Shown here one piece after another: positions 4,797 to 19,140 of a stretch of 40,608 bases of DNA (within the stretch, counting starts at the first letter, position 1; each line of letters starts with the position of its first letter). Under the pieces are notes generated by a model. It had not been told where the DNA came from. It saw only the letters and a list, made by a program, of their open reading frames with translations, and did not search any database. The position numbers and the translations under genes are program-made. The DNA is from Elainella saxicola E1 (GTDB lineage: Bacteria; Cyanobacteriota; Cyanobacteriia; Elainellales; Elainellaceae). The DNA is taken from assembly GCA_002796835.1 (NCBI GenBank), contig LUGL01000021.1, forward strand, positions 48,023 to 88,630. Direction: 5' to 3'.

Positions 4797-7700
4797 CTAA
4801 GCGAATCGGTAAGTTGCCGTATTGCTCAAGCTCAATGAAGTTGCGATATTGGCTGCTGTGAATCCATTTGTTCCCTGGAGGCGCATCAATAAGTCACCAG
4901 TGCCGAACTGCTGGTTGGCAACACGGAGTTGAGTGTCGGTTCCTACAGTCACCACATCCACTTCAGCAATTCCGGTAATGCCGAACACATCTCCTCCTCG
5001 GCGGAATCCAATGATCGTATCTAAACCATCGCCGACGCTATAGCGAACTTCATCCCGGTTTGCATCCCCTAACAGGTTTATCCGATCGTTCCCCAGTCCG
5101 CCAGTTACAACATCAGATCCGATCCCCGGATTCAAATTATCAGTGCCATCTCCACCGTCGAGCGTATCGTTGCCTAGGTTCCCCTCCAGAATATCGTTTC
5201 CTAATCCGCCGATCAGACTGTCGGTATTATCGCCTCCTTCTAGTAGGTCATCCCCGTCACCACCATCCAATGTATCGTTGCCTGCGCCCCCATCCAGGTA
5301 ATCGATGCCAGCTTGACCAAATAGTTTGTCACTGCCCAGTCCGCCTTTCAAAAAGTCATCTTCTGTGCCGCCTTCCAGCCTGTCATCTCCGACATCGCCA
5401 TCGAGCACATCTTTCCCAGCTCCACCCAGCAGGGAATCATTGTCAGTTCCCCCATTCAGGTAGTCATTGTTCTCATTGCCTTCCAGACGATCGACGCCAG
5501 CATCCCCCCAGAGATAGTCATCGCCTAGGCCACCCCGCAACGTATCATTTTCCGATCGGCCATAAAGGGAATCGTCACCAGCTTCCCCATAGATTGTATC
5601 GTTGCCCAGACCGCCAATGAGTGAATCCTTGCCATCTCCACCCCAGAGCGTATCCAGTCCAGCATCCCCATTCAGGGAATCATTCCCGATGCCCCCATAG
5701 AGCAGATCATCCCCATCTTCTCCCCACAGGACATCGTTGCCCCCTTGCCCAAACAGCGTATCGACATCTAGGCCCCCGGCTATCACATCGCCTCCGGCTG
5801 CCCCCTGCAAGGTGTCACTGCCCGCTAATCCAGTGATGTAGTTTGCAATGCTGGTGCCATTAATCGTGTCAGGCGCTGCCGTGCCCACCATTCGATTGAG
5901 CGTGCTATCTGAAAAAGTGGTGTTGGGTCCGCGCAAAGCATAGGTTCCTCTTGTGCCACCCAGAGCGAGATTATTCGTAACCGCGTTGTTGTCATCCCCG
6001 ATCGACTTTTCCCGCACCCCATAACGGGCCCGATTGGTGAGGGAACTGCGGATCGTGTTGTTTTGAATCTGGTTGAACGTTGAGTAAGTTAAACCTTCAT
6101 CATAGACTTCGATTTCGCTATAGCGATCGTTCTCTAATTGAGAACTGTCCATCACCAAATTGCCGCTAACCTCATTCCCCGAGCTGCGCCGCAAGGCTAC
6201 TCCATACTTACCACTACTCAGAAAGCGGTTGTTCTGAATTGTGTTCATCCCTTCTTCTGGGATATAGATACCGTTGCCCTGATTGGCCACCACTTCATTG
6301 TCGGTGATTTCCAGCTTGCGGCTACCCGTTTGAATCGTGATGCCATTCCCGCCATTTCCTACACTCACGTTATTGATTAAGCGGCTATTCTGCGCTTCCG
6401 TGACAAAGTTAAAGCCATGGCGATCGTTCCCAACCACTAAATTCTTTTCGAGCAGTGAGTCGATTACCTTATCTAGGGCCATTCCATCTAGACCACTCGA
6501 TTCAACAATGTTGTTGCGGATCGTGAGATTGCGCGTTGCAGTACCCGTCCGAGAGTTCTCATGCGGATCCATGCCATAGGAAGGGGTATTCCGAATGTAC
6601 AGATTCTCGAATTTGCTGTTGTTATAGGTGCCGTAGATGCCATATTTATCGTTTTTCAGGGACTGGTTGACTCGATTCCCATCTAATTGCAAATCAGAAA
6701 TCGTCACATTCGAGACATCAATGTCTGAACTCAGGCCAGCGTTGCCTTGACTGCGGATGATACCAGCTAGATTAAGATCCGTTTGGTCAGCCAGCCTCAA
6801 TTTTGTCGTCCACCCTGTTCCCTTCAGTGCAACATTATTTTTCACCAAAATATTGCTCGACAGGTTGTAAATGCCTGGTAGCAATAAAACGGTACCCCCT
6901 CCTGCTGCATTCACTTCTGCGATCGCCCGATTGATCACGCTCTGATCGTTCGTCCCGGTAGCCCGATAGTTGGCTTGCGCGGCTCTGGTCGGATCAGTAT
7001 TGTCTGCTGCAACGACGATCGTAAGGTTATTGGTTTGTGGCGGGAAAGAGATATTGGGGACCTGATGGACATAAGTATTCACCTGGAAAGTGCCGCCGCT
7101 AGGATTATTTGCCCCATCGTAGCGCTGGCCATAGGTGCGGTAATCGGTACCACCCGGACTGAGAGAATGCCAAATGCTGGCAAATCCGCCGTTCGGTAAA
7201 CCCGTTACCGCAGCGGGAGCTTGATCTTGCGTGGTAAAGCTACTGATCTGAAATTCATTGCCAACGGCAGTCCCATTGCTGCTATAGCGACGACCCATGA
7301 CAGTATAGTCACCATTAAATTGACTTTGCGATCGCCAGTTGATCGCAAATCCACCGTCACTCAGTGCGGTCACCACTGGATTCTTCTGATTGGCGATCGT
7401 GCTGTTATTGACTAAAAATTCACCACCGATCGCGTTGCCGTTCGCATCATAGCGACGAGCTACTACACCATAGCCGCTACCATCCTGACCATAGGAATTC
7501 CAGGCAACCACAAAGCTGCCGTCCGTTAAGGTTGCGGTCGTCGGCGTGTTCTGGGAAGTGGCCGTATAGCTGTTGACCTGAAATTCCCCACCAACGCGGA
7601 CTCCATTAGCATCGTAGCGTTGACCAAATACCCCATACTCATCCCCATCGCGATCGAGGGACTGCCAGACTGCTACAAATCCGCCATTATTGAGAGCGGT

Positions 7701-8270
7701 GAGTGCTGGAAAACCATGGTCGGGCGCAGTGGAAGTATTGATCTGGAATTCACTACCGACACGATTACCACTGGTATCGTAGCGCTGACCAAAAATTCCG
7801 TAGGCTTGTAAATTCTCGCCATCCGTTGAGTTTTTTAAGGTGGAGTCCCATGCCACCACAAAACCACCCGTTGCCAAACCAATCACACTTGCATGTTCTT
7901 GCCAGCTCGTGACAAAGGAGTTAATTAAGAACTCAGTCCCAATTCGGTTGCCGCTCACATCATAGCGTTGACCAAAAATGTCATACTCAGTGCCACCAAA
8001 ATCACGGGATTGCCAGGTGACAATAAAGCCACCATCCGCTAATGAAGCAACAGCAGGATGATCCTGAGAGTCATTCGTTGTTGTATTGATCCGAAATTCC
8101 TCGCCAACCCAATTACCGTTCGCATCATAGCGTTGACCGTAAATCCCCCAATCCATACCATCCTGGTATTCCGATTGCCAGACTGTGATAAATCCACCAT
8201 CTCGTAAGGTTGCTGCTGACGGAACAGGTTGCTTATAGCCTGGGCGGGTATTAAATTCAAAGCCAGCCAT
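4797..8270 (-). CDS. AlgE-like mannuronan C5-epimerase: seven-repeat domain + catalytic beta-helix + RTX
   Basis: 1157-aa predicted secreted epimerase, converting beta-D-mannuronate to alpha-L-guluronate in polymeric alginate (inference from family). Residues about 3-400 hold seven units of about 55 aa with the signature [18 protein letters not shown], possibly a seven-bladed propeller. Residues about 415-790 form a right-handed beta-helix containing YGMDPHE (Y565, D568, H570) and [10 protein letters not shown] (R617, H618), which correspond to catalytic Y149, D152, H154 and R195 of AlgE4. Residues about 794-1062 are RTX nonapeptides (GGxGxDxLxG), binding Ca2+. The C-terminal ~95 aa fit an uncleaved type I secretion signal, and there is no N-terminal signal peptide. 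AAGGAAGGAG precedes the ATG by about 10 nt. It is the last gene of the polysaccharide block, 497 bp after the second epimerase gene. Other uronan-acting activities are not excluded. Confidence 0.85.
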
Positions 8271-8767: not shown

Positions 8768-10516
8768 TTAGGGAGTGATGGTTGAATTTGGACCTAGCTT
8801 ATAGATTGCTTTTCTGACAGAACCAGAGATAATGTTATCAATGTAGGCATTGTAATCATCTTGACTGCTCTTTTCAGAAATGCCATATCGGTGACGATTT
8901 GTGGTATTCGATCGAATCGTATTGTTTCTCACTTTGTTGTTGGTCGAATAGGCGATCGCATCATTATCCAGATAGACGCCTGAGTATTTATCATGTAATG
9001 CTTGACCGTTATTTTCGATCGTATTGTTATCAACAAATGAGTAAGATGTGCCCCTTAAGCGAACCCCATGATATCCATTGCTGAAAATGCTGTTGTTCTT
9101 GATTTCCGAGTCGCGCGATCGATAGACGTAAATCCCTTCCTTCGCGTTCGAAAACACCGTATTGTTCCGCACAATATTCGTTTCAGAAGTGCGACTAAGA
9201 TCCCCCCCTGGCTGCATGGTGATTCCGGTTGCCCCATTACTGCTGACAATATTGTTCTCAAACAAATTGTTGCGAGCCGCCGTCACAATGTTAATGCCAT
9301 GCCGACCATTGGAATCGCTAATATTGTCGTAGAAATCAGAGAATTGGCAATTGTCGGTAGTCATCCCATCCACTTTGTTATGGTCGGTGAGACTATCTTT
9401 GATCGTCAGGCGCACAGTAGGGGTACCCGCATAATAGTTTTCATGCGGGTCAAATCCATAATGGGGAAAATCATGAATGCGCAGATCTTCAAAACTACTA
9501 TCGAGATAGGTGCCGTAATTACCATAACTATCGTCATAATCCGTGCCCTGATCCTTATTGCCATCCAGGGACATATGACGAAAATGCTGATTAGAGAATC
9601 TGGATTTTCGCAGGTTGTCTGTTTCAGACTTATAGGCCGATCGGAGCAACCCTGCATCTCGTAAATTTGAATTGGGGGCTAATCGTAAAATCGTTGACCA
9701 GCCGACACCCGTCAAGGTGATATTGTCGTAGGTAATCAAGACATTATTGGAAATATTGTAGTTTCCTTCCATCAGCACAATCGTTCCACCGCCTCGATTC
9801 CCCATGCTGGCGATCGCCTGATTGATCACTGTCTGATCGCTGGTGCCTGTACACCGAAAGTCTGCTGAACTGGCAAATTCTGAGTTTTGCGCTGCCACTG
9901 AAATGGTATTCGGGGCATTATGGGGCTGGAAATTGAGCTGATATTCTGACTTGGCATAGCGGGGATTGCCTGTAATACTGCTCGGCGTAACCCGCACGTA
10001 ATAGGTTCCTGCTGCCAGAGAGGCCGTCAATGTTCCACCCGTTTTCGTACTATCGGCAGCGTCCCAGGTCGTCCCGCTATTCGTCGCACTTTTGAGGACA
10101 TTACCACCACTGTCCAGCAGATCGATCGTATTGCCTGCGCTTAAACCATCCAAGAAGACACTGAATAAATCAGCATTATTCAAGCTGAACTGATAGTAAT
10201 CCGCCGGATCAGACGCATTCACCGTCCCTTTTAGCGAATAATATCCTGTGATCGCACCAAGGCTGGTGGCCTCGCCCAGTGTATTACCTCCATCTAGCAA
10301 TACTGTGTTACCGTCACTGCTTAAGGTGCGATGGGTTGCCCCCCCTTTAGTTCGCTTTTTATGATTTTGTTGAGCTGCTCGCCAGCGCTGATTTCTGGTT
10401 AATAGTCCTCCTGTTTGATCGGATTGACCTGAAAAGAACCGAGAACTGCCTGAGGTCAGCGCGTCAGCCGCACTCGATCGTTTGAATAAATTAAGCTGAA
10501 TGTTTTCCTTCGCCAT
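8768..10516 (-). CDS. Mannuronan C5-epimerase-like protein with N-terminal PPC-like domain
   Basis: 582 aa. Residues 1-70 are basic and polar with no signal peptide or TM. Residues about 75-196 resemble a bacterial pre-peptidase C-terminal (PPC) beta-sandwich, with DPADYYQFSL and LAAGTYYVRV. Residues about 200-582 are a parallel beta-helix with the epimerase signature YGFDPHE (Y353, D356, H358) and NGRHGINIVT (R405, H406), the same set as AlgE4 Y149/D152/H154/R195. The H-to-R spacing of 47 is identical to the neighbouring RTX epimerase, so the two are paralogues. Likely role: epimerising mannuronan during or after export. It has no RTX repeats or Sec/Tat signal, so its export route is unclear. 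The Shine-Dalgarno is weak. It lies 252 bp downstream of the mannuronan synthase gene. Confidence 0.83.
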   Translation of the reverse strand: MAKENIQLNLFKRSSAADALTSGSSRFFSGQSDQTGGLLTRNQRWRAAQQNHKKRTKGGATHRTLSSDGNTVLLDGGNTLGEATSLGAITGYYSLKGTVNASDPADYYQFSLNNADLFSVFLDGLSAGNTIDLLDSGGNVLKSATNSGTTWDAADSTKTGGTLTASLAAGTYYVRVTPSSITGNPRYAKSEYQLNFQPHNAPNTISVAAQNSEFASSADFRCTGTSDQTVINQAIASMGNRGGGTIVLMEGNYNISNNVLITYDNITLTGVGWSTILRLAPNSNLRDAGLLRSAYKSETDNLRKSRFSNQHFRHMSLDGNKDQGTDYDDSYGNYGTYLDSSFEDLRIHDFPHYGFDPHENYYAGTPTVRLTIKDSLTDHNKVDGMTTDNCQFSDFYDNISDSNGRHGINIVTAARNNLFENNIVSSNGATGITMQPGGDLSRTSETNIVRNNTVFSNAKEGIYVYRSRDSEIKNNSIFSNGYHGVRLRGTSYSFVDNNTIENNGQALHDKYSGVYLDNDAIAYSTNNKVRNNTIRSNTTNRHRYGISEKSSQDDYNAYIDNIISGSVRKAIYKLGPNSTITP

Positions 10517-10768: not shown

Positions 10769-12952
10769 CTACGAGAGTGAACTGCCCCTGATATGCGTAT
10801 CGGTGGTGTCAATTTGGACCAACTTTTTGCCTTGAGCAGTGTTGCCAATGTTGACATATTCCACCACTACGTTCTGAGTTGAATGCAAGACAATACCGTA
10901 ATGTAAAGCTCGTTCGATATTGATCTGTTTCAACGATGCCTGATTCACATTCCTCAAAAGAATTCCATCTAACTGGGATTGCTGCGTCCGATCGGCACCG
11001 AGTTGCAGCGTAAATCCCTGTAGATGAATGTCATGGACGTTCGTAAATGCAGTTGGGATGACTTCCAGTTCTTCGTCGAGTTCTTCGTTTTCGCGATCGC
11101 CTATCTCCGGACCGATCTGTAATGCAGCCTGACTATGGCCTTCCGATGGGTGATCAAATTTCACCGCCAAAATTGTTCGATCGATCCCCTGTCCATTCAA
11201 AATGGTCAAACTGCGATCGAGATCAACGGGATGAAACAGGTCAATTTCACCGATCGGCAAATTGATTTGATAAATCCCTTCTTTGGTGGAAAGATCATCA
11301 ATCAACGTTTGCAGTGCTTGCGCATCATCCTGATTATCATCTGCAATCACACCATAGTGAGTGGCCAGCACCTTCGTAATCGTTACATCCGGCTGAGGTT
11401 GCCAGGACAGCCAAAGCTCATTCACCGTTTGAACTGGATTGAGGATTCCCAGCAACGAAAACAGCACCACTCCAAAGGTAAAGGCTTGAGTCAACAATAA
11501 AAAGCGAGAGGTGTTTTTGGTGACGAACTGCACCCAGGGATTGCCACCCACCGAAAGTTTACGATCGCCCCGGTTAAACCAACGCTGCTGAGCCAGGTTC
11601 ATTTGCGTCCAGATTTTAATCAGTGCAGAAGACCATTGAGAAAGCAGCAGGATAGGCAAATGCAGTGGCTTTAAGTGAGATTCTCGTCCCCAGAAAATCA
11701 GGGTTAAGGTGAGCGATCGGCTAAACACCATCCAGCAGAGCAAAATTCCTGCTGGCAGCCAGTGCCGTTGCAACAAGGCAATCAGCAGCAAGCAAGGAGA
11801 AATCAGCGATGTCCACATATTGGTGCGCTGATCCAGCAGGCAAAGCGTGACAAATAATCCCAGCTTTCCAGGCCCTAAAGCCAGGGCTCGGTTGCCATTG
11901 CGGAGCATATTACCAAACCAGCGCCGCATATTCTGGTACATGCGATTAGGCAATGACCCAGAAATACTTTCAATGGAATAGATGACGACATCAGGTAGGT
12001 AGATTAGATCGTAATTTCGATTTTTGAGCATCCAATACCAGGTCGTTTTATCATCCCCAGAAAGAAACTTGAACCGTCCCCACAGCCAGTCATCCAGCAT
12101 ATCGGATTCTAACTGATCGGCAAAATCTGGGTGTAAGGCCGCTTCACTGCGATAGAGCGAAAATCGACCGGTCAGACACAGCACCTTTTTGGAAAGGGCG
12201 ATCGAGCACATTTGATAATGCCGCTGAGCAAACCGCAGATGAAACCATTCTGAAAAAATATAGGAACCAACCACCACAGGAATTTCATCGGTTGTTAAAG
12301 CTCCTAATTTGGGAAACAGGCGAAAGAAGGGGAGGCTCCGCCGCAAGGTGCCCGGTGAAAACTCTGAGTCTCCATCCATCAGGGCAATCACTGTCTCTTG
12401 AGGCAAATTCAGTCCTGCAATCACCCGCAATCCAACAGACAATGCTTTGCGTTTACCATCACCCGGATCGATCGCATGCACCACCCGAACCGATGAAAGG
12501 TCTGGATCACCCAAACGTAATGCCTCAACGATCGCCGCATCTTCTTCTGCACCGCTGCTGACTGTCACGATCGTCACGGGTTGCCCTAACTGCCGCGCTT
12601 CCAGACCGATCGAACGGAAAACCCGTTCTGTAATCCAGGGTTTTTCTTTAAAGGTGGGAATCAACAAACAGACCGGCGGTAGTTCCTCAACTGGAATGGC
12701 ATTGGCTCGACGACGCCATCGGGGAAAAACCAAATGCTGATAAATTAGCCACCGCACAATGTGTAGCCCAAACCAGCTCCAACGCCAAATGCCCACAACG
12801 CCCAGGCTAATTAAGCCCGTCCAACCGAGCGCCGCCAATTTTGCTGGATCGCGTAAGACACAAAGTCCGAAGAAGCTAACCGCTGCGATCAGTAAGACAG
12901 CAACTTGGTTGAGCATTACATTGAGTTGATCTGAAGATTTTGATTGACTCAT
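10769..12952 (-). CDS. alg8: Mannuronan synthase (Alg8-like GT2) fused to a beta-helix-like domain
   Basis: 727-aa inner-membrane glycosyltransferase predicted to polymerise GDP-mannuronate. TMs lie at about residues 11-30 and 45-72; the GT2 domain is at about 90-350. It has PGDGKRKAL (163-171), MDGDSEF (192-198), a long Alg8-type block at 234-265 (SEWFHLRFAQRH, CSIALSKKVL, TGRFSLYR), GDDK (299-302) and RRWFGN (343-348), then a further TM cluster at about 364-505. This part matches Pseudomonas Alg8 (about 494 aa) closely, including LFVTLCLLDQRTNMWTSLI. Residues about 525-727 are extra. They open like a pectate-lyase-type beta-helix (HYGVIADDNQDDAQALQTLI) and continue with short beta-rung repeats; by topology this part could be periplasmic. 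No clear Shine-Dalgarno. Downstream frames hint at a frame-disrupted C-terminus. Confidence 0.9.
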   Translation of the reverse strand: MSQSKSSDQLNVMLNQVAVLLIAAVSFFGLCVLRDPAKLAALGWTGLISLGVVGIWRWSWFGLHIVRWLIYQHLVFPRWRRRANAIPVEELPPVCLLIPTFKEKPWITERVFRSIGLEARQLGQPVTIVTVSSGAEEDAAIVEALRLGDPDLSSVRVVHAIDPGDGKRKALSVGLRVIAGLNLPQETVIALMDGDSEFSPGTLRRSLPFFRLFPKLGALTTDEIPVVVGSYIFSEWFHLRFAQRHYQMCSIALSKKVLCLTGRFSLYRSEAALHPDFADQLESDMLDDWLWGRFKFLSGDDKTTWYWMLKNRNYDLIYLPDVVIYSIESISGSLPNRMYQNMRRWFGNMLRNGNRALALGPGKLGLFVTLCLLDQRTNMWTSLISPCLLLIALLQRHWLPAGILLCWMVFSRSLTLTLIFWGRESHLKPLHLPILLLSQWSSALIKIWTQMNLAQQRWFNRGDRKLSVGGNPWVQFVTKNTSRFLLLTQAFTFGVVLFSLLGILNPVQTVNELWLSWQPQPDVTITKVLATHYGVIADDNQDDAQALQTLIDDLSTKEGIYQINLPIGEIDLFHPVDLDRSLTILNGQGIDRTILAVKFDHPSEGHSQAALQIGPEIGDRENEELDEELEVIPTAFTNVHDIHLQGFTLQLGADRTQQSQLDGILLRNVNQASLKQINIERALHYGIVLHSTQNVVVEYVNIGNTAQGKKLVQIDTTDTHIRGSSLS

Positions 12953-13205: not shown

Positions 13206-13631
13206 TTATGTTGAAGCAATTCGGGCATAGTCATCCTGATATCTCACGATATCGTCTTCCCCCAGGTATTCACCATTTTGCACCTCGATCAGAACCAGCG
13301 GCACAACACCTGGATTCTCTAAGCGATGCGCAGCACAAGCTGGCACATAGGTTGACTGGTTGGTGAGCAGGAGCGTTTCATGCTCCCCGCAGATGACTTT
13401 GGCAGTTCCAGATACCACAATCCAATGTTCACTACGGTGATGATGCATCTGTAAACTGAGGCGATTTCCAGGTTTAACTTCGATTCGCTTGATCTTGTAA
13501 TTTCTTCCTTCTTCCAAAACTGTGAAGGATCCCCAAGGACGAATTTCAGTTTCAGCAAGATTAGAAATGGCCGTTACCATTGCAAAAGGGGTAGCGTTCT
13601 TGCTCTGAACAGCAGATTGAGAAGTCGGCAT
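13206..13631 (-). CDS. Mannose-6-phosphate isomerase, type II cupin (AlgA/ManC C-terminal domain alone)
   Basis: 141 aa, equivalent to the C-terminal isomerase domain of bifunctional AlgA/ManC, which interconverts fructose-6-phosphate and mannose-6-phosphate. Motifs: RPWGSFTVLEEG (31-42), KPGNRLSLQMHHHRSEHWIV (53-72) with its metal-binding His cluster, NQSTYVP (91-97), HRLENPG (102-108) and GEDDIVR (124-130). The guanylyltransferase half of AlgA/ManC is absent, so GDP-mannose formation must rely on another gene. The ATG at 13631 is chosen over an upstream TTG because AAGGAAG lies 6 nt before it. The gap from the algD stop is only 34 bp, so the two are almost certainly cotranscribed. Confidence 0.92.
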   Translation of the reverse strand: MPTSQSAVQSKNATPFAMVTAISNLAETEIRPWGSFTVLEEGRNYKIKRIEVKPGNRLSLQMHHHRSEHWIVVSGTAKVICGEHETLLLTNQSTYVPACAAHRLENPGVVPLVLIEVQNGEYLGEDDIVRYQDDYARIAST

Positions 13632-13665
13632 TATTATCTTCCTTACACAAATAAGCACAAGTCAA

Positions 13666-14982
13666 TTAAGCAGCCTGGGCAGGGATCTGTTCTGCCAAAC
13701 CACCATGAGATTGCCAGGTCACCAGATCTAAAACAGGCTTATTGGCGGCATACTGTTGCAGCGCTTCGGTGAACTCTGAACGGTGCTGGCTGAGAATGAC
13801 TGCGTCACATTCCTTCAAGACCTCAGCCAAGTCGGTGCGGAATACCCAATGAACTTGCGGCAATTGGCGTTCCAGATATTCGCGATTGCTACCCAACATG
13901 GTGTTCAGATCTTGAATATCTGCATCGCAAACGCGGACTTTCATGCCGTCTTGCCAAAGTTGGTGAACTAGATTGATGATCGGACTTTCCCGCAAATCAT
14001 CGGTGCCCGCCTTGAAGCTCAAGCCTAAAACCGCAACGCTGCGAACGCCAAGGTCATGCACTTTGAGGCGAGCGGTGTCAATATGAATCTGGTTACTGGG
14101 TAGAACGGATTCCAGAATTGGCAGTTTTTCTCCTAAGCGATTTGCGTTAAAGGCTAGGGAGCGGAGATCTTTGGGCAAGCAAGATCCGCCAAAGGCAAAG
14201 CCCGGTTTAAGATACTTCGAGGAGATATTTAACTTGGTATCTGCACAGAGCAATTCCATGATTTTGTGACTATCGACATCAATCGCATCACACAGGCGGC
14301 CAATTTCATTGGCAAAGCCAACTTTGAGGGCATGGAAGGCATTGTTGACAATCTTCAGGACCTCTGCATCTTCTAGGGGAATATGGTAGATCGGTGCATC
14401 AATGCCGTCATATAGCTTCTCGACCATGGCCCCCGATCGCGCATCATATTCTCCGATCGCAGTCAGTGGCGGATGATAGAAATCATGCACAGCCGTCGTT
14501 TCGCGCAGGAACTCAGGGTTCATGGTTAAACCAAAGTCTTCACCCACTTTCTTCTGAGAATATTCTTCTAAAATGGGCAGAAGCTGTTTGCGCGCAACCC
14601 CTGAGAACACCGTACTCCGCAGCACAACCACATGATAGCGATCGCTCTGCTGCATACCATAGCCAATTTCTTTGGCCACACTATAGATATAGTCTAAAAT
14701 TGGGCTGCCATCTGGAGAACTGGGAGTTCCAACGCAGATCAAGGACATATCTGCCCAGGCAACATATTCACGACCATCTGTCACTGCTTTTAAATTTCCG
14801 TTCGCCAACCCTTGCTGAATCAGTTCATCCAGATCGGGTTCTTTGATGGGACTATAGCCACTATTGAACTTTTTGACTTTCTCTGCGCTAACTTCTACTC
14901 CAATCACTTCATGGCCACGTTCTGCTAAACAAGCTGAAACAACCGTGCCAACATAACCCAAACCCCAAACTAGAACTCGCAT
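13666..14982 (-). CDS. algD: GDP-mannose 6-dehydrogenase
   Basis: 438 aa. NAD-dependent four-electron oxidation of GDP-mannose to GDP-mannuronate, the committed step to alginate in Pseudomonas and Azotobacter. Rossmann motif GLGYVG (7-12); SLICVGTPSSPDG (80-92); NPEFLRE (155-161); FAFGGSCLPKD (262-272) with nucleophile C268, the same number as in P. aeruginosa AlgD; and KAGTDDLRESP (324-334). The last motif and LKPGFAFGGSCLPKD favour AlgD over UDP-glucose dehydrogenase, where FGGGSCFPKD and KPxTDD are usual. The ATG at 14982 is preferred because AAGGAG sits 7 nt upstream; the longer frame starts at GTG 15009. It is upstream of the cupin and downstream of the EAL-HlyD gene. Confidence 0.94.
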   Translation of the reverse strand: MRVLVWGLGYVGTVVSACLAERGHEVIGVEVSAEKVKKFNSGYSPIKEPDLDELIQQGLANGNLKAVTDGREYVAWADMSLICVGTPSSPDGSPILDYIYSVAKEIGYGMQQSDRYHVVVLRSTVFSGVARKQLLPILEEYSQKKVGEDFGLTMNPEFLRETTAVHDFYHPPLTAIGEYDARSGAMVEKLYDGIDAPIYHIPLEDAEVLKIVNNAFHALKVGFANEIGRLCDAIDVDSHKIMELLCADTKLNISSKYLKPGFAFGGSCLPKDLRSLAFNANRLGEKLPILESVLPSNQIHIDTARLKVHDLGVRSVAVLGLSFKAGTDDLRESPIINLVHQLWQDGMKVRVCDADIQDLNTMLGSNREYLERQLPQVHWVFRTDLAEVLKECDAVILSQHRSEFTEALQQYAANKPVLDLVTWQSHGGLAEQIPAQAA

Positions 14983-15206
14983 AGATGTACTCCTTATCAG
15001 TGTTTTCACAACTTAGGGTATAAACTTGACCAATTCACTAACCGGAGCATGCAACAGGAATCTTCTGAAAGTGCTTCTACCCACTCAAAGCGGCGATCGG
15101 CACATTCCGTAAAGAGCGGCACGCGCAGCCGCTACCAGACTTGCGGCATTGATTCAACCGCAACCAAAGCATCAAGCTTTTCAGCAGACATTTACCAGGT
15201 AGATGT
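14983..15206. promoter_or_regulatory. 224-bp region before algD
   Basis: Carries the algD Shine-Dalgarno. It also holds a short direct repeat TTTACCAG (15189-15196 and 15208-15215) next to the stop of the EAL-HlyD gene. No gene seen; an internal promoter is possible but not defined. Confidence 0.3.
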
Positions 15207-17459
15207 TTACCAGAAGTAATTGGGCGTTTGCTTAGTAAATGTCACATTGGTGAGCTGCCCTACCCCACAGAACTGCTGGGATTGATCCTGGCTGGATAGG
15301 GGCGGAATACGAATGGTAATACGGGTGACAGGAACTCCAGCCAACTGGAATGGAACCGAAGGCTGCAAGGCCTGAATTTGGGTCGATCGAGATTGATCCT
15401 CTGCCGCTTGGGCACTGCTAATGGGCTGAATCAAATCGATTTCTCCTGTTAAGGGTTCTAGGCCATGCCCCAGTTCTACCTTTACTGGTTTATTGGTATC
15501 AATTTGAGCCGCATCGTAGGAGCTAACCATGACCTCAACCCAAACATCTTTACAATCCAGCAGGGTCAGCAAAGGTTCAGATCGATTAATTTGCTCGTTA
15601 CGTTCTCGTTCGGTCCGATAGACCACCCCTGCAAACGGAGCAGAGACTGCCAGATCCTGCTGATTGCTGTAGAGCGATTGGGCCTGAGCCAGCCGTTGCT
15701 GGGCATTGTCCCGTTCAGTCGTTAAGGTTTTGACGAGCGCAACCTGTGCCTGAATGTTTTGTTGGAGCTGGGTCGCATCTTCAGCAAAACCATTGCCTAA
15801 TCCGGGTGATCGCACCATCAGAGTCCGGCTTTCAGAAACATGTAGGTCAGATTGAGCCATCTGCAGGGCTGCTTCTGCCTGTTCCACAGTTGCTTGAGCA
15901 GTTTCCCACTGGGCCTTTAACTGATCGACCTGCTGTTGTGAAACAATTCCGGCATCCAACAATTCTTGATAGCGATCGTAATCTAAACGGGCAGCTCTTG
16001 CTTGAGATTGAGCAGCATCTAAGGCAGCCTGCTGCTGGGTTACAGCCTGATTCGCAAAATTAACCTCGACGTTCCAGGTAGAGTCTGCTTGCTCTTCTAA
16101 ATGCTGCAACTGTGACTCTAGCATCGTTTGAGTTTGAATTGCTGCATTGATCTGTTCATTTTTAGTTTGAATTTCACCTTGGAGTGCTAACAGATTTTGT
16201 TCCTCTGCCGGATCGCGCCGCACGCGGGCAAGCACCTGTCCTTGATCAACTTCAACACCGGGTTTTGCATAAAATTTCGTCACTGTCCCATCAATTTGAG
16301 AACGTAACCGGACCACTCGTCCATTGATCACGCCTCCATCTATCACAATCTGATTCATGCGATGGTAGATAGAACTGGCTCCGACTGCTAATGCTGCTGT
16401 GCCGACAGAAAGGAATGTAGTAGCCGCCAACATTCGTCCCACAGGGAGCCGAAACCGATGGGGTTGTGCCGTTGGAGCCTTGCTACCCCGATTCATCTTT
16501 TCTGGAATCAAGAGCGGAATCTCAGCAGCAGCCTGGGGAGATTCCACCTGTGGCTCTGCAGGAATTTGCGGCTCGACTGGCGGCAGAATGGTTGGAGCAT
16601 CCTGGACAATCACCTGTTCTGTAGAATGCGCCGTATTCTCAAAGTTCTCTTGATATCCGGGTGTAGCAGGAACAACGCTTGTTTCCAATGCTGGGAAGGG
16701 AGCTAATCTCGGAGAATCATCGGGGGCATTTAGATAACAACCCTGAACCCCATCAAATGCTTTTGTCCGCGCCCAATTCAGCATTGCGGCTTCTTCGACA
16801 AACTTGACCACCACCTGCCCCAGGCAAAAGCGGCTCTCTACTAAATAGGAGCTGAGCTCTTCACCCGATCGCGTGATGAATAGTTGAGCAAGCTGGCTGT
16901 CCACCTTCACCATGCTGATTTGCAGCAGTTGGTCTCCTACCTGTTGCCATTGCAGATGGTCTAATTCATAGCTGGTAAAGTCATCGAGAATCACCGGACA
17001 TCCCAGTTGATTCATCGCTTGGATAAAGCAGCGTGCCGCCTGCAAGTTGGAAGCAACTGCTCTAGCACCAAGTTCAATGCTGAGACGTTTTGGTTCAATC
17101 TTGGCTGCTGTTAATGCATTTTGAATAAAGGTCGCCACTTGAGGGCGGTTAAGCGACTGTTCGGATAAATTAACGGAAAGCTTTAACTCATCATCCTGCT
17201 GCATATACTCGATCGACATTTGAATGATTTGTTGATCGAGCCATGCCATCATCCCCATCCGTGATAACGCAGGCAAGAATTTTTCTGGTAGATGTAACTC
17301 ATTACGACGATCGCGCCAACGCACGAGCACCTCATGATGCAAAATGAAACCATTCGTGAGTTGGTATACGGGTTGAAACCACAGCGCGATTTGCTCGGCA
17401 TCAAGAAAACCAGTCCTCAATGATGGAGCCTGTTCTTCAAGTCTGGAATTAATGCTCAT
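15207..17459 (-). CDS. Degenerate EAL domain fused to HlyD-type membrane-fusion protein (Alg44-like)
   Basis: Residues below count from TTG 17480; ATG 17459 is residue 8 and is the start I prefer. Neither has a good Shine-Dalgarno. Residues about 25-262 are a cytoplasmic EAL domain. It keeps EVLVRW (E50), N104, E136, D166/D167, K192 and Q246, but the Glu of AEGVE is Lys (K226) and loop 6 reads DDFTSYELDH. It is therefore probably catalytically dead yet perhaps able to bind c-di-GMP. A Pro/Glu linker spans about 265-345, with one TM at about 347-370. The periplasmic HlyD-like part has split lipoyl halves (about 391-424 and 608-640), a long coiled-coil hairpin (about 425-605) and a beta-barrel to 757. 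Pseudomonas Alg44 has PilZ-TM-HlyD, so position and architecture suggest a c-di-GMP-gated co-polymerase. A type I secretion adaptor for the RTX epimerase is the main alternative. Confidence 0.85.
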   Translation of the reverse strand: MSINSRLEEQAPSLRTGFLDAEQIALWFQPVYQLTNGFILHHEVLVRWRDRRNELHLPEKFLPALSRMGMMAWLDQQIIQMSIEYMQQDDELKLSVNLSEQSLNRPQVATFIQNALTAAKIEPKRLSIELGARAVASNLQAARCFIQAMNQLGCPVILDDFTSYELDHLQWQQVGDQLLQISMVKVDSQLAQLFITRSGEELSSYLVESRFCLGQVVVKFVEEAAMLNWARTKAFDGVQGCYLNAPDDSPRLAPFPALETSVVPATPGYQENFENTAHSTEQVIVQDAPTILPPVEPQIPAEPQVESPQAAAEIPLLIPEKMNRGSKAPTAQPHRFRLPVGRMLAATTFLSVGTAALAVGASSIYHRMNQIVIDGGVINGRVVRLRSQIDGTVTKFYAKPGVEVDQGQVLARVRRDPAEEQNLLALQGEIQTKNEQINAAIQTQTMLESQLQHLEEQADSTWNVEVNFANQAVTQQQAALDAAQSQARAARLDYDRYQELLDAGIVSQQQVDQLKAQWETAQATVEQAEAALQMAQSDLHVSESRTLMVRSPGLGNGFAEDATQLQQNIQAQVALVKTLTTERDNAQQRLAQAQSLYSNQQDLAVSAPFAGVVYRTERERNEQINRSEPLLTLLDCKDVWVEVMVSSYDAAQIDTNKPVKVELGHGLEPLTGEIDLIQPISSAQAAEDQSRSTQIQALQPSVPFQLAGVPVTRITIRIPPLSSQDQSQQFCGVGQLTNVTFTKQTPNYFW

Positions 17460-18192
17460 AGTGAAGCTATTGGATTGCAATGTCTAACAGAAGCGTTGAT
17501 GACAGCAGTGAAATAATTCCAAGGGTTTTTTCGGCAAGCCGATTCCCTTCAGTTTGCAGGAAACACAATGAAAGATAGTCAAAATAAAGTCAATATTTTG
17601 AGTGAAACCTGGTGCGTCGTATCCCAACAGCTACTTCAAAAGGTTACTGTGACCTACTGTACGCATGTATCTCAGAACAGGGAATTACTTAAATCAGGCC
17701 CACCTCCGTAATAATACTAGAACAAGTCGTATAAATCGAAGCTTTTCCATGAAGCTCGGATAAAGAATTTTCGGCTATCCAGTATAAAAAACCACTCTTT
17801 TGCAAACTTTTAATGAAGTCAGAATGAACTAGTTTTATGAAAGTCTGACCGGGCAACGTTTCTAGCGCTGTACGTATTTTCACACTTAGAAGAAGGTTGC
17901 ATCTCCGTATAATTTCGCACAGTTTTTAAGTCCATCCATCAATGTGTCTTTAAGCCATCTTGGTCATGCTCAGTCTAAAAAATTAGGGGACTGGCTCCAG
18001 AGTTCAAGCCTGGAGTGGAGCATATCCCTCGTTTTACCAACACTCAATCAAGCAACTGAGATAGCAATCCGATTCAAATTGTGAAAAGGTAGTGCGGACA
18101 TCTTGCCTGCGTTGGCACAGCTTCTCCAGTAGAAGAAACGAGACGCTTACACGATGAGGCAATTCCACAAATGATTGAGGACTGCTATTAGG
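17460..18192. other. 733-bp AT-rich intergenic region between the lyase and EAL-HlyD genes
   Basis: I see no gene I would defend. A GTG-started frame of 64 codons (17689-17883, minus strand) lacks a Shine-Dalgarno and recognisable homology. A degraded hairpin repeat lies at about 18092-18156. The size suggests the lyase is transcribed separately and that a promoter for the EAL-HlyD/algD genes lies here. Confidence 0.4.
18092..18156. repeat. Degraded copy of the intergenic hairpin element
   Basis: GTGCGGACATCTTGCCTGCG followed 30 nt later by GAGACGCTTACAC resembles the arms of the element at 4608-4665 (TTTTGCCCG / GGCGAGACGCCTACCCCAC). The arms are partly mutated. Confidence 0.35.
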
Positions 18193-19140
18193 TTAATCAA
18201 TTGCATAAACAGCAAAATTGGCAAAATCAGCTACGACTTCTTTCTTAGTTGCCCATGAAGTATCATCTCCACCAAAGAAGGTCGAGAATAAAATGCCATC
18301 AATTTTCAAGGCACGGGTTGAACGGAACTCCAGTTGATCCTTTTCTAAGCGCAATCTGCCATCAACCCAAACTCGGACTTTTCCATCTCGTTGACCAGGT
18401 TGGTTTAAAGTCACTTCCTGTTCAAGGTGATGCCATTGTCCAGGTTGAAATCGCCATTGTCCTCGACCGATCGATGTACCATGGGCACGACTGGTTGGCA
18501 GATAGGCATATACCTCACCTTGTCCGCGTTGACGCCACATAAATCGAGTGGAGAAGCCGTCTCTGCCGTTAGGAATTCGTCCCCCCGTGTTGCCTGTGCC
18601 ACCGAATAACCCTGGTAACTTCCCCCCTTTCACAAAGTCAAACTCTTCTGAAAATCGCACAAAGTAGCTTAACTTTAAGGCTTCGTGAGCACCGAGCCCT
18701 AAATTTCCATAAAATTGTGTGCCGCCTACCGGTGCATCATTTTCGCGACTTACTGTCGGGCTAGCTGACCCTCTGGGATAACGAATACGCAAAACTTTGC
18801 TAAATTGCCCTGTTTCATCTGCAATCACTTGAGCGTTTTGCCATCCCCAAGATCCTTGCCGACGAACATCCCAATGGGCTCTCCAATTATCTTCTGAAAA
18901 ATCACTAGACCAGAGTAAAGACGGTTCTATTGGTTCCGCTGGACTGGCTGAGGTTGAAGCAATCGCTCTTGGAATTGGCAGATTAGGAGTATTTGAAGCA
19001 AAGGATTGGGACGAGCAGCTACTCAATACACAGGAAAGCAGAAGCCCATGGAGGAGGGATTTATAATTTAAACGAAATAGGTCATAAGCTGAACGATCGC
19101 AATTACTTAATCGATAAAATACTCGGGTCTTATCAATCAT
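18193..19140 (-). CDS. PL14-like polysaccharide (alginate) lyase, predicted lipoprotein
   Basis: 315 aa. The N-terminus has a hydrophobic stretch at about 29-41 ending in a lipobox-like LSSC, so C42 could be lipidated, placing the enzyme in the periplasm or outer membrane. Residues about 75-314 form a concanavalin-like jelly-roll. GGKLPGLFGG (172-181, K174), STRFMW (197-202) and VYAYLP (210-215) match polysaccharide lyase family 14. S197, R199, Y211 and Y213 have the same spacing as the S/R/Y/Y catalytic set I recall for the PL14 alginate lyase AkAly30. Predicted reaction: beta-elimination of (poly)mannuronate. In Pseudomonas the operon lyase AlgL is PL5, so this would be an unrelated replacement. 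First gene of the block; glucuronan lyase is a possible alternative. Confidence 0.75.
   Translation of the reverse strand: MIDKTRVFYRLSNCDRSAYDLFRLNYKSLLHGLLLSCVLSSCSSQSFASNTPNLPIPRAIASTSASPAEPIEPSLLWSSDFSEDNWRAHWDVRRQGSWGWQNAQVIADETGQFSKVLRIRYPRGSASPTVSRENDAPVGGTQFYGNLGLGAHEALKLSYFVRFSEEFDFVKGGKLPGLFGGTGNTGGRIPNGRDGFSTRFMWRQRGQGEVYAYLPTSRAHGTSIGRGQWRFQPGQWHHLEQEVTLNQPGQRDGKVRVWVDGRLRLEKDQLEFRSTRALKIDGILFSTFFGGDDTSWATKKEVVADFANFAVYAID

Follow-up and report, generated by a model that had tools for sequence, protein, structure and literature searches.

An Alg8-type synthase carrying a predicted beta-helix domain in a cyanobacterial alginate gene cluster

The window, i.e., the whole stretch of DNA analysed here, comprises 40,608 nt of Elainella saxicola E1 (GCA_002796835.1, contig LUGL01000021.1, positions 48,023-88,630 of the forward strand). 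The following features were assigned, with coordinates counted from the first position of the window and residues numbered in the synthase.

4797..8270, minus strand: RTX-repeat epimerase of the AlgE type, YGMDPHE motif intact (AlgE6 5lw3, E 2.8e-37)
8768..10516, minus strand: AlgE-type mannuronan C5-epimerase with an N-terminal PPC domain and an intact YGFDPHE motif (AlgE4 2pyg, E 7.5e-40)
10769..12952, minus strand: Alg8-type GT2 synthase with a predicted C-terminal beta-helix domain; 727 aa, read from an ATG without an internal stop
10838..11365, minus strand: fused domain of residues 530-705, predicted to be a short right-handed beta-helix on the periplasmic side, from the tail model and the ortholog alignment
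11153..11365, minus strand: cap and first rungs (residues 530-600), where the tail is best conserved, from the family alignment
11441..11824, minus strand: C-terminal membrane part, residues 377-504, with TM3, TM4, an interfacial helix with a basic loop and the last TM (486-504, in-to-out)
11912..12679, minus strand: GT2 catalytic domain, residues 92-347, from PF13641 (E 1.8e-26), the motif alignment and invariant columns
13206..13658, minus strand: cupin of the ManC/AlgA C-terminal type (mannose-6-phosphate isomerase; PF01050, E 2.4e-50)
13666..15009, minus strand: AlgD-type GDP-mannose 6-dehydrogenase (top structure match the GDP-mannose dehydrogenase 1mfz, E 1.3e-119)
15207..17480, minus strand: degenerate EAL domain joined to a membrane fusion protein of the HlyD type, probably the co-polymerase/adaptor in Alg44's place
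18193..19140, minus strand: PL14 alginate lyase (PF21294, E 2.7e-62; alginate lyase 5gmt, E 2.4e-30)

The genes for the lyase, the EAL-HlyD protein, the dehydrogenase, the cupin, the synthase and both epimerases all lie on one strand in the window. By gene content, they document a rather complete alginate cluster for cyanobacteria. The next-best structure match of the dehydrogenase is UDP-glucose dehydrogenase (3e-64), and its identity to the Loktanella enzyme amounts to 37%. The cupin is a stand-alone ManC/AlgA-type half with no nucleotidyltransferase half adjoining it. In the epimerase with RTX repeats, the N-terminal part is made up of several repeats of about 55-60 residues each, for which no Pfam model match was obtained.

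The synthase gene is present in a single copy in its own genome (8.7 Mb). The motif alignment revealed the DGD, LTTDE, LTGR, GDDK and RW-GN-LR motifs common to alphaproteobacterial Alg8. The synthase of Loktanella (489 aa) is 35% identical to the window protein over 454 aa, and its operon also encodes a nucleotide-sugar dehydrogenase, an NTP-transferase, a beta-helix protein, an MBOAT protein, two AlgX-domain proteins and AlgF. Given the AlgF, AlgX-domain, MBOAT and beta-helix genes, the Loktanella operon is an alginate operon. Searches for PDB chains related to the whole synthase (phmmer with the whole protein, hmmsearch with a seven-sequence profile) returned none at the cut-offs. Judged from its gene neighborhood, the product appears to act as alginate polymerase in a synthase-dependent system of cyanobacteria. 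The use of GDP-mannuronate and the formation of polymannuronate would follow indirectly from the AlgD-type dehydrogenase, the epimerases and the alginate lyase encoded alongside.

The C-terminus sets the protein apart. Fourteen alphaproteobacterial homologues were found in plasmid records, and every match is confined to residues 9-521 of the window protein. Two annotated alphaproteobacterial synthases of 489 and 495 aa end directly after the last membrane helix, and an unannotated Rhizobium frame, 552 aa as read, shows similarity to the synthase part alone. The cyanobacterial proteins do not end there as a standard Alg8 does: about 150-200 extra residues follow in the 13 complete orthologs, so the window protein is a variant rather than a standard Alg8.

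The fused synthase-tail was found in 14 cyanobacterial species, the window's included, and the proteins of the other species are about 48-62% identical to the window protein. Two loci (L002 and L007) belong to one genome in this count and one (L012) runs off the end of its contig, leaving 13 complete tails. Recurrence on this scale goes well beyond chance, and the open frame and the conservation of the junction in 14 species rule out an annotation artefact or a frameshift. A remnant of a broken full epimerase was ruled out as well, given the domain's conservation and the similar end points of the orthologs. Among 386 genomes across the cyanobacterial phylum, the whole protein and a profile of the tail matched the same six genomes and loci; tail and synthase were thus not found apart in this set at the thresholds used. 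A scan of 85,000 species was run with a single query sequence, which detects close relatives only, and tailed relatives outside cyanobacteria may therefore escape it. The fusion is sporadic, occurring in five of 36 genomes of the order and in none of the four other members of the genus, which suggests loss or transfer. In one further genome (G391, loci L016-L019), the fused gene is spread in overlapping fragments with stops over two contigs, as a pseudogene or through an assembly error; this genome is included in the count for the order and left out of the 14 species. A quick tree built from the synthase part sets the three alphaproteobacterial proteins apart as one group with a long branch, opposite all cyanobacterial ones. 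This split is compatible with one fusion event. No description of this synthase-beta-helix architecture was found in the literature searched. The domain architecture is real and conserved and its anatomy well supported; what the tail does is a matter of inference.

The gene neighborhood is equally recurrent. In each of the 14 species, the HlyD gene either adjoins the synthase gene or has nothing but the AlgD/cupin genes in between. A lyase gene is close by in the window, as it is in 10 of the 13 remaining species. The proximity of a PL14 lyase to the fused synthase in most species parallels the place of XcsC, an endoglucanase, in the cellulose cluster of cyanobacteria.

The tail comprises about 180-200 residues, of which 530-705 form the conserved domain. 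It begins with the pectate-lyase-like motif GVIADDNQDDAQALQTLI. PF12708 (Pect-lyase_RHGA_epim, pectate-lyase/epimerase type) matches 11 of the 13 orthologous tails with a best E of 4.5e-9, and PF13229 (Beta_helix) matches four; the window tail itself scores 16 bits against PF12708, for which the curated cut-off is 27, and is likewise below the Pfam cut-off for PF13229. A profile search of solved structures with the tail gave a weak match to the polysaccharide lyase RbmB (E 1.9e-5). AlphaFold, run on the tail only with a six-sequence alignment, produced a short right-handed beta-helix (pLDDT 77.8, pTM 0.78) as the one good model of five, the other four having a pLDDT of 40-48. This model resembles many solved right-handed beta-helices (Z 14-20), and matches from Foldseek are right-handed beta-helices too. 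One of them, 4mxn, is a small stand-alone beta-helix (Z 20.0, 2.5 A over 173 residues) that is fitted over nearly its entire length; hence, a beta-helix this short can be complete. An alginate epimerase/lyase (8ja4) gives Z 17.3, and the A-modules of AlgE4 and AlgE6 give Z 16.1-16.4, with 175 residues superposed at 2.1-2.2 A within chain residues 1-191. The full-length model is poor (pLDDT 54) and gives no reliable position of the tail relative to the membrane part; its tail part still belongs to the beta-helix class (Z about 10-13). The tail is therefore predicted to be a right-handed parallel beta-helix. Profile comparisons of the tail with individual epimerases yielded nothing significant, which gives no support to its direct descent from the neighboring epimerases and limits any claim of common ancestry to the fold. 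Conservation is concentrated in the cap and first rungs: D539, D542, D543, Q548, P566, G568, E569, R580 and G587 are invariant, and the mean pairwise identity is 54% in residues 530-600 vs 33% in residues 640-705. The net charge is acidic in 11 of the 13 orthologous tails and is -18 in the window tail.

These results agree in part with an earlier sequence-only reading, which had proposed an Alg8-like synthase fused to a beta-helix-like C-terminal domain. The GT2 domain, the Alg8 motifs and the similarity to Loktanella bear out the synthase, and the tail model, with Z 16 to AlgE4, bears out the fold. The fusion recurs in other species, and the suspicion of an annotation artefact can be dropped. 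The pectate-lyase-like opening of the tail was read correctly; its start was not, lying at about residue 524 instead of about 510, and the gene is on the minus strand.

The family-averaged hydropathy reveals five strong membrane segments (residues 15-33, 38-56, 377-395, 402-420 and 486-504) and a weaker one at 430-448, which we take to be interfacial, as the helix that precedes the gating loop of related synthases occupies a corresponding position. The cytoplasmic-side loops carry 5.1-5.9 K+R on family average, and the region after the last segment 1.1 K+R vs 2.3 D+E. With 430-448 interfacial, all strongly basic loops are inside and the tail is outside. The charge distribution thus predicts a periplasmic (exoplasmic) tail, in line with the tethering suggested before.

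The HlyD-type partner also deviates from known systems. The general-base glutamate of the AEGVE segment of its EAL domain is replaced by K in all five EAL-bearing copies, and the window copy has also lost part of the ELTE motif. Owing to these degenerate catalytic residues, the domain is probably a c-di-GMP receptor and not a phosphodiesterase. At least three species have an adaptor without an EAL domain (orthologs in L005, L008 and L012). The partner has EAL and HlyD instead of the PilZ domain of Alg44, with the membrane-fusion part present, and is apparently an Alg44 substitute with EAL in PilZ's place. A phylum-wide survey of cyanobacteria reported no Alg44 of the PilZ-HlyD type (PMC4594306). 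As for export, a search for an AlgE-type porin gave no match in the window genome, with one genome giving a match as a control. For cyanobacterial cellulose synthesis, a synthase-HlyD-TolC plan has been proposed (PMC12430437). The missing porin match and the long HlyD coiled coil make a TolC-type route plausible by analogy.

Taking gene content, fusion, conservation and loss of the catalytic motif as read from these genomes, we infer, tentatively and as the reading we lean towards, that the tail is a non-catalytic scaffold at the channel exit for the nascent chain, and that it contacts the adaptor. The cytoplasmic GT2 domain would add mannuronate from GDP-mannuronate and drive the chain through the protein's own membrane part. 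Past the last membrane helix, the chain would meet a half-length, epimerase-like beta-helix on the periplasmic side that would not be an enzyme. At the channel exit, this helix may receive or shelter the nascent polymannuronate, keep it away from the co-encoded alginate lyase and align the synthase with the HlyD-type adaptor. In Pseudomonas, AlgG is an epimerase and also belongs to a scaffold that guards the chain from the lyase; the two roles are separable, and catalytic mutants still yield alginate (PMC3815931). A dead epimerase-like helix at the exit and an alginate lyase in the cluster fit the scaffold half of AlgG's job, and one polypeptide might thus take over this non-catalytic role.

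The sequence-only reading had also considered that the tail modifies the chain, and this part did not hold. In epimerases, a His and a Tyr have a role in the active site (PMC4444821). In the alignment with AlgE4, the active site of the epimerase carries YGFDPHE; the DPH motif is absent from all 13 complete tails. When tail and epimerase are aligned rung by rung, by eye from sequence pattern and structural range, a hydrophobic or another non-Asp residue takes the place of the Asp in 13 of 13 tails, and the Tyr and His positions vary. Moreover, the tail aligns with residues 1-191 only, the first half of the fold, instead of a full-length A-module of about 375 residues. The window also has genes for full epimerases next door, both with the DPHE motif intact. 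Together, these observations make an active epimerase or modifying enzyme unlikely. Even residual epimerase or lyase activity on the nascent chain, for which the fold common to AlgE4/AlgE6 and 8ja4 and a Tyr and a His near the aligned positions in the window tail could be cited, seems very improbable, since these two residues are not kept in the orthologs. Still less credit is given to a cytoplasmic tail that regulates the synthase. It would require six membrane helices, and 430-448 could indeed serve as the sixth, weak hydrophobic stretch; hyaluronan and cellulose synthases have cytoplasmic C-termini. However, the most basic C-terminal loop (457-484, 5.6 K+R) would then be outside, contrary to the positive-inside rule.

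Polymer binding, which the sequence-only reading had put forward beside modification, may still occur, though the acidity of most tails does not favor a simple electrostatic mode. The tail could alternatively act as a clamp with affinity for polymannuronate, perhaps via calcium, and set processivity or chain length in the manner of the AlgE R-modules, which tune processivity (PMC4444821). Its predicted fold is that of the alginate-binding A-modules, R580 is invariant, and several acidic residues are possible calcium ligands. Nevertheless, the acidic character of most tails and the weak conservation of the later rungs, where the groove would lie, argue against a simple electrostatic clamp for a polyanion, and this function is considered improbable. 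The same acidity, together with the conserved cap, leaves adaptor docking as a serious rival, although on balance we regard it as rather unlikely. In that case, the membrane-near cap would bind the HlyD-type adaptor or make synthase oligomers, with no polymer contact. The presence of the HlyD gene at all loci of the fusion and the proposal of the same synthase-HlyD-TolC plan for cyanobacterial cellulose (PMC12430437) speak for such a collar, but the cap residues (DD..A..LQ.LI, LPxGE) are generic for the fold and their conservation may be structural.

The exit-side scaffold would be part of a larger picture, which we consider possible though doubtful: an independent cyanobacterial alginate machine that does not use the route via AlgK, AlgE and AlgX, combining a dead-epimerase scaffold on the synthase, a c-di-GMP-sensing degenerate-EAL/HlyD co-polymerase for Alg44 and TolC-type export. 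The fused synthase bears on how nascent alginate is handed over at the inner membrane, a step for whose components Alg8 and Alg44 a lack of structural information was noted in 2022 (PMC9734138). A synthase with a fused exit-side scaffold would reveal the scaffold's place and offer a single-gene handle to test it.

Compared to known systems, the synthase resembles Alg8 of Pseudomonas, Azotobacter and alphaproteobacterial operons in its GT2 catalytic motifs, its membrane arrangement and an algD gene adjoining or near, whereas the annotated proteobacterial pair of 489 and 495 aa stops after the last membrane helix and the cyanobacterial proteins add a predicted beta-helix. The AlgE-type and AlgG mannuronan C5-epimerases share the right-handed beta-helix predicted for the tail, whose model superposes on AlgE4 residues 1-191; unlike them, the tail has half the length, is fused to a synthase and is without the catalytic motif. 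In Pseudomonas, Alg8 pairs with the membrane-fusion protein Alg44 (PMC3815931). Like Alg44, the partner has an N-terminal c-di-GMP-type domain, a membrane anchor and a membrane-fusion part, and its gene is beside or near that of the synthase, but it has a degenerate EAL domain for PilZ, or no sensor domain, and a long HlyD coiled coil. Finally, although the window cluster has alginate enzymes instead of cellulose enzymes and descriptions of XcsA list PilZ or PCR domains but no beta-helix tail, the Xcs cellulose system (XcsA, HlyD-like XcsB, endoglucanase XcsC and TolC) likewise clusters a synthase, an HlyD-like adaptor and a polymer-cutting enzyme (PMC12430437).
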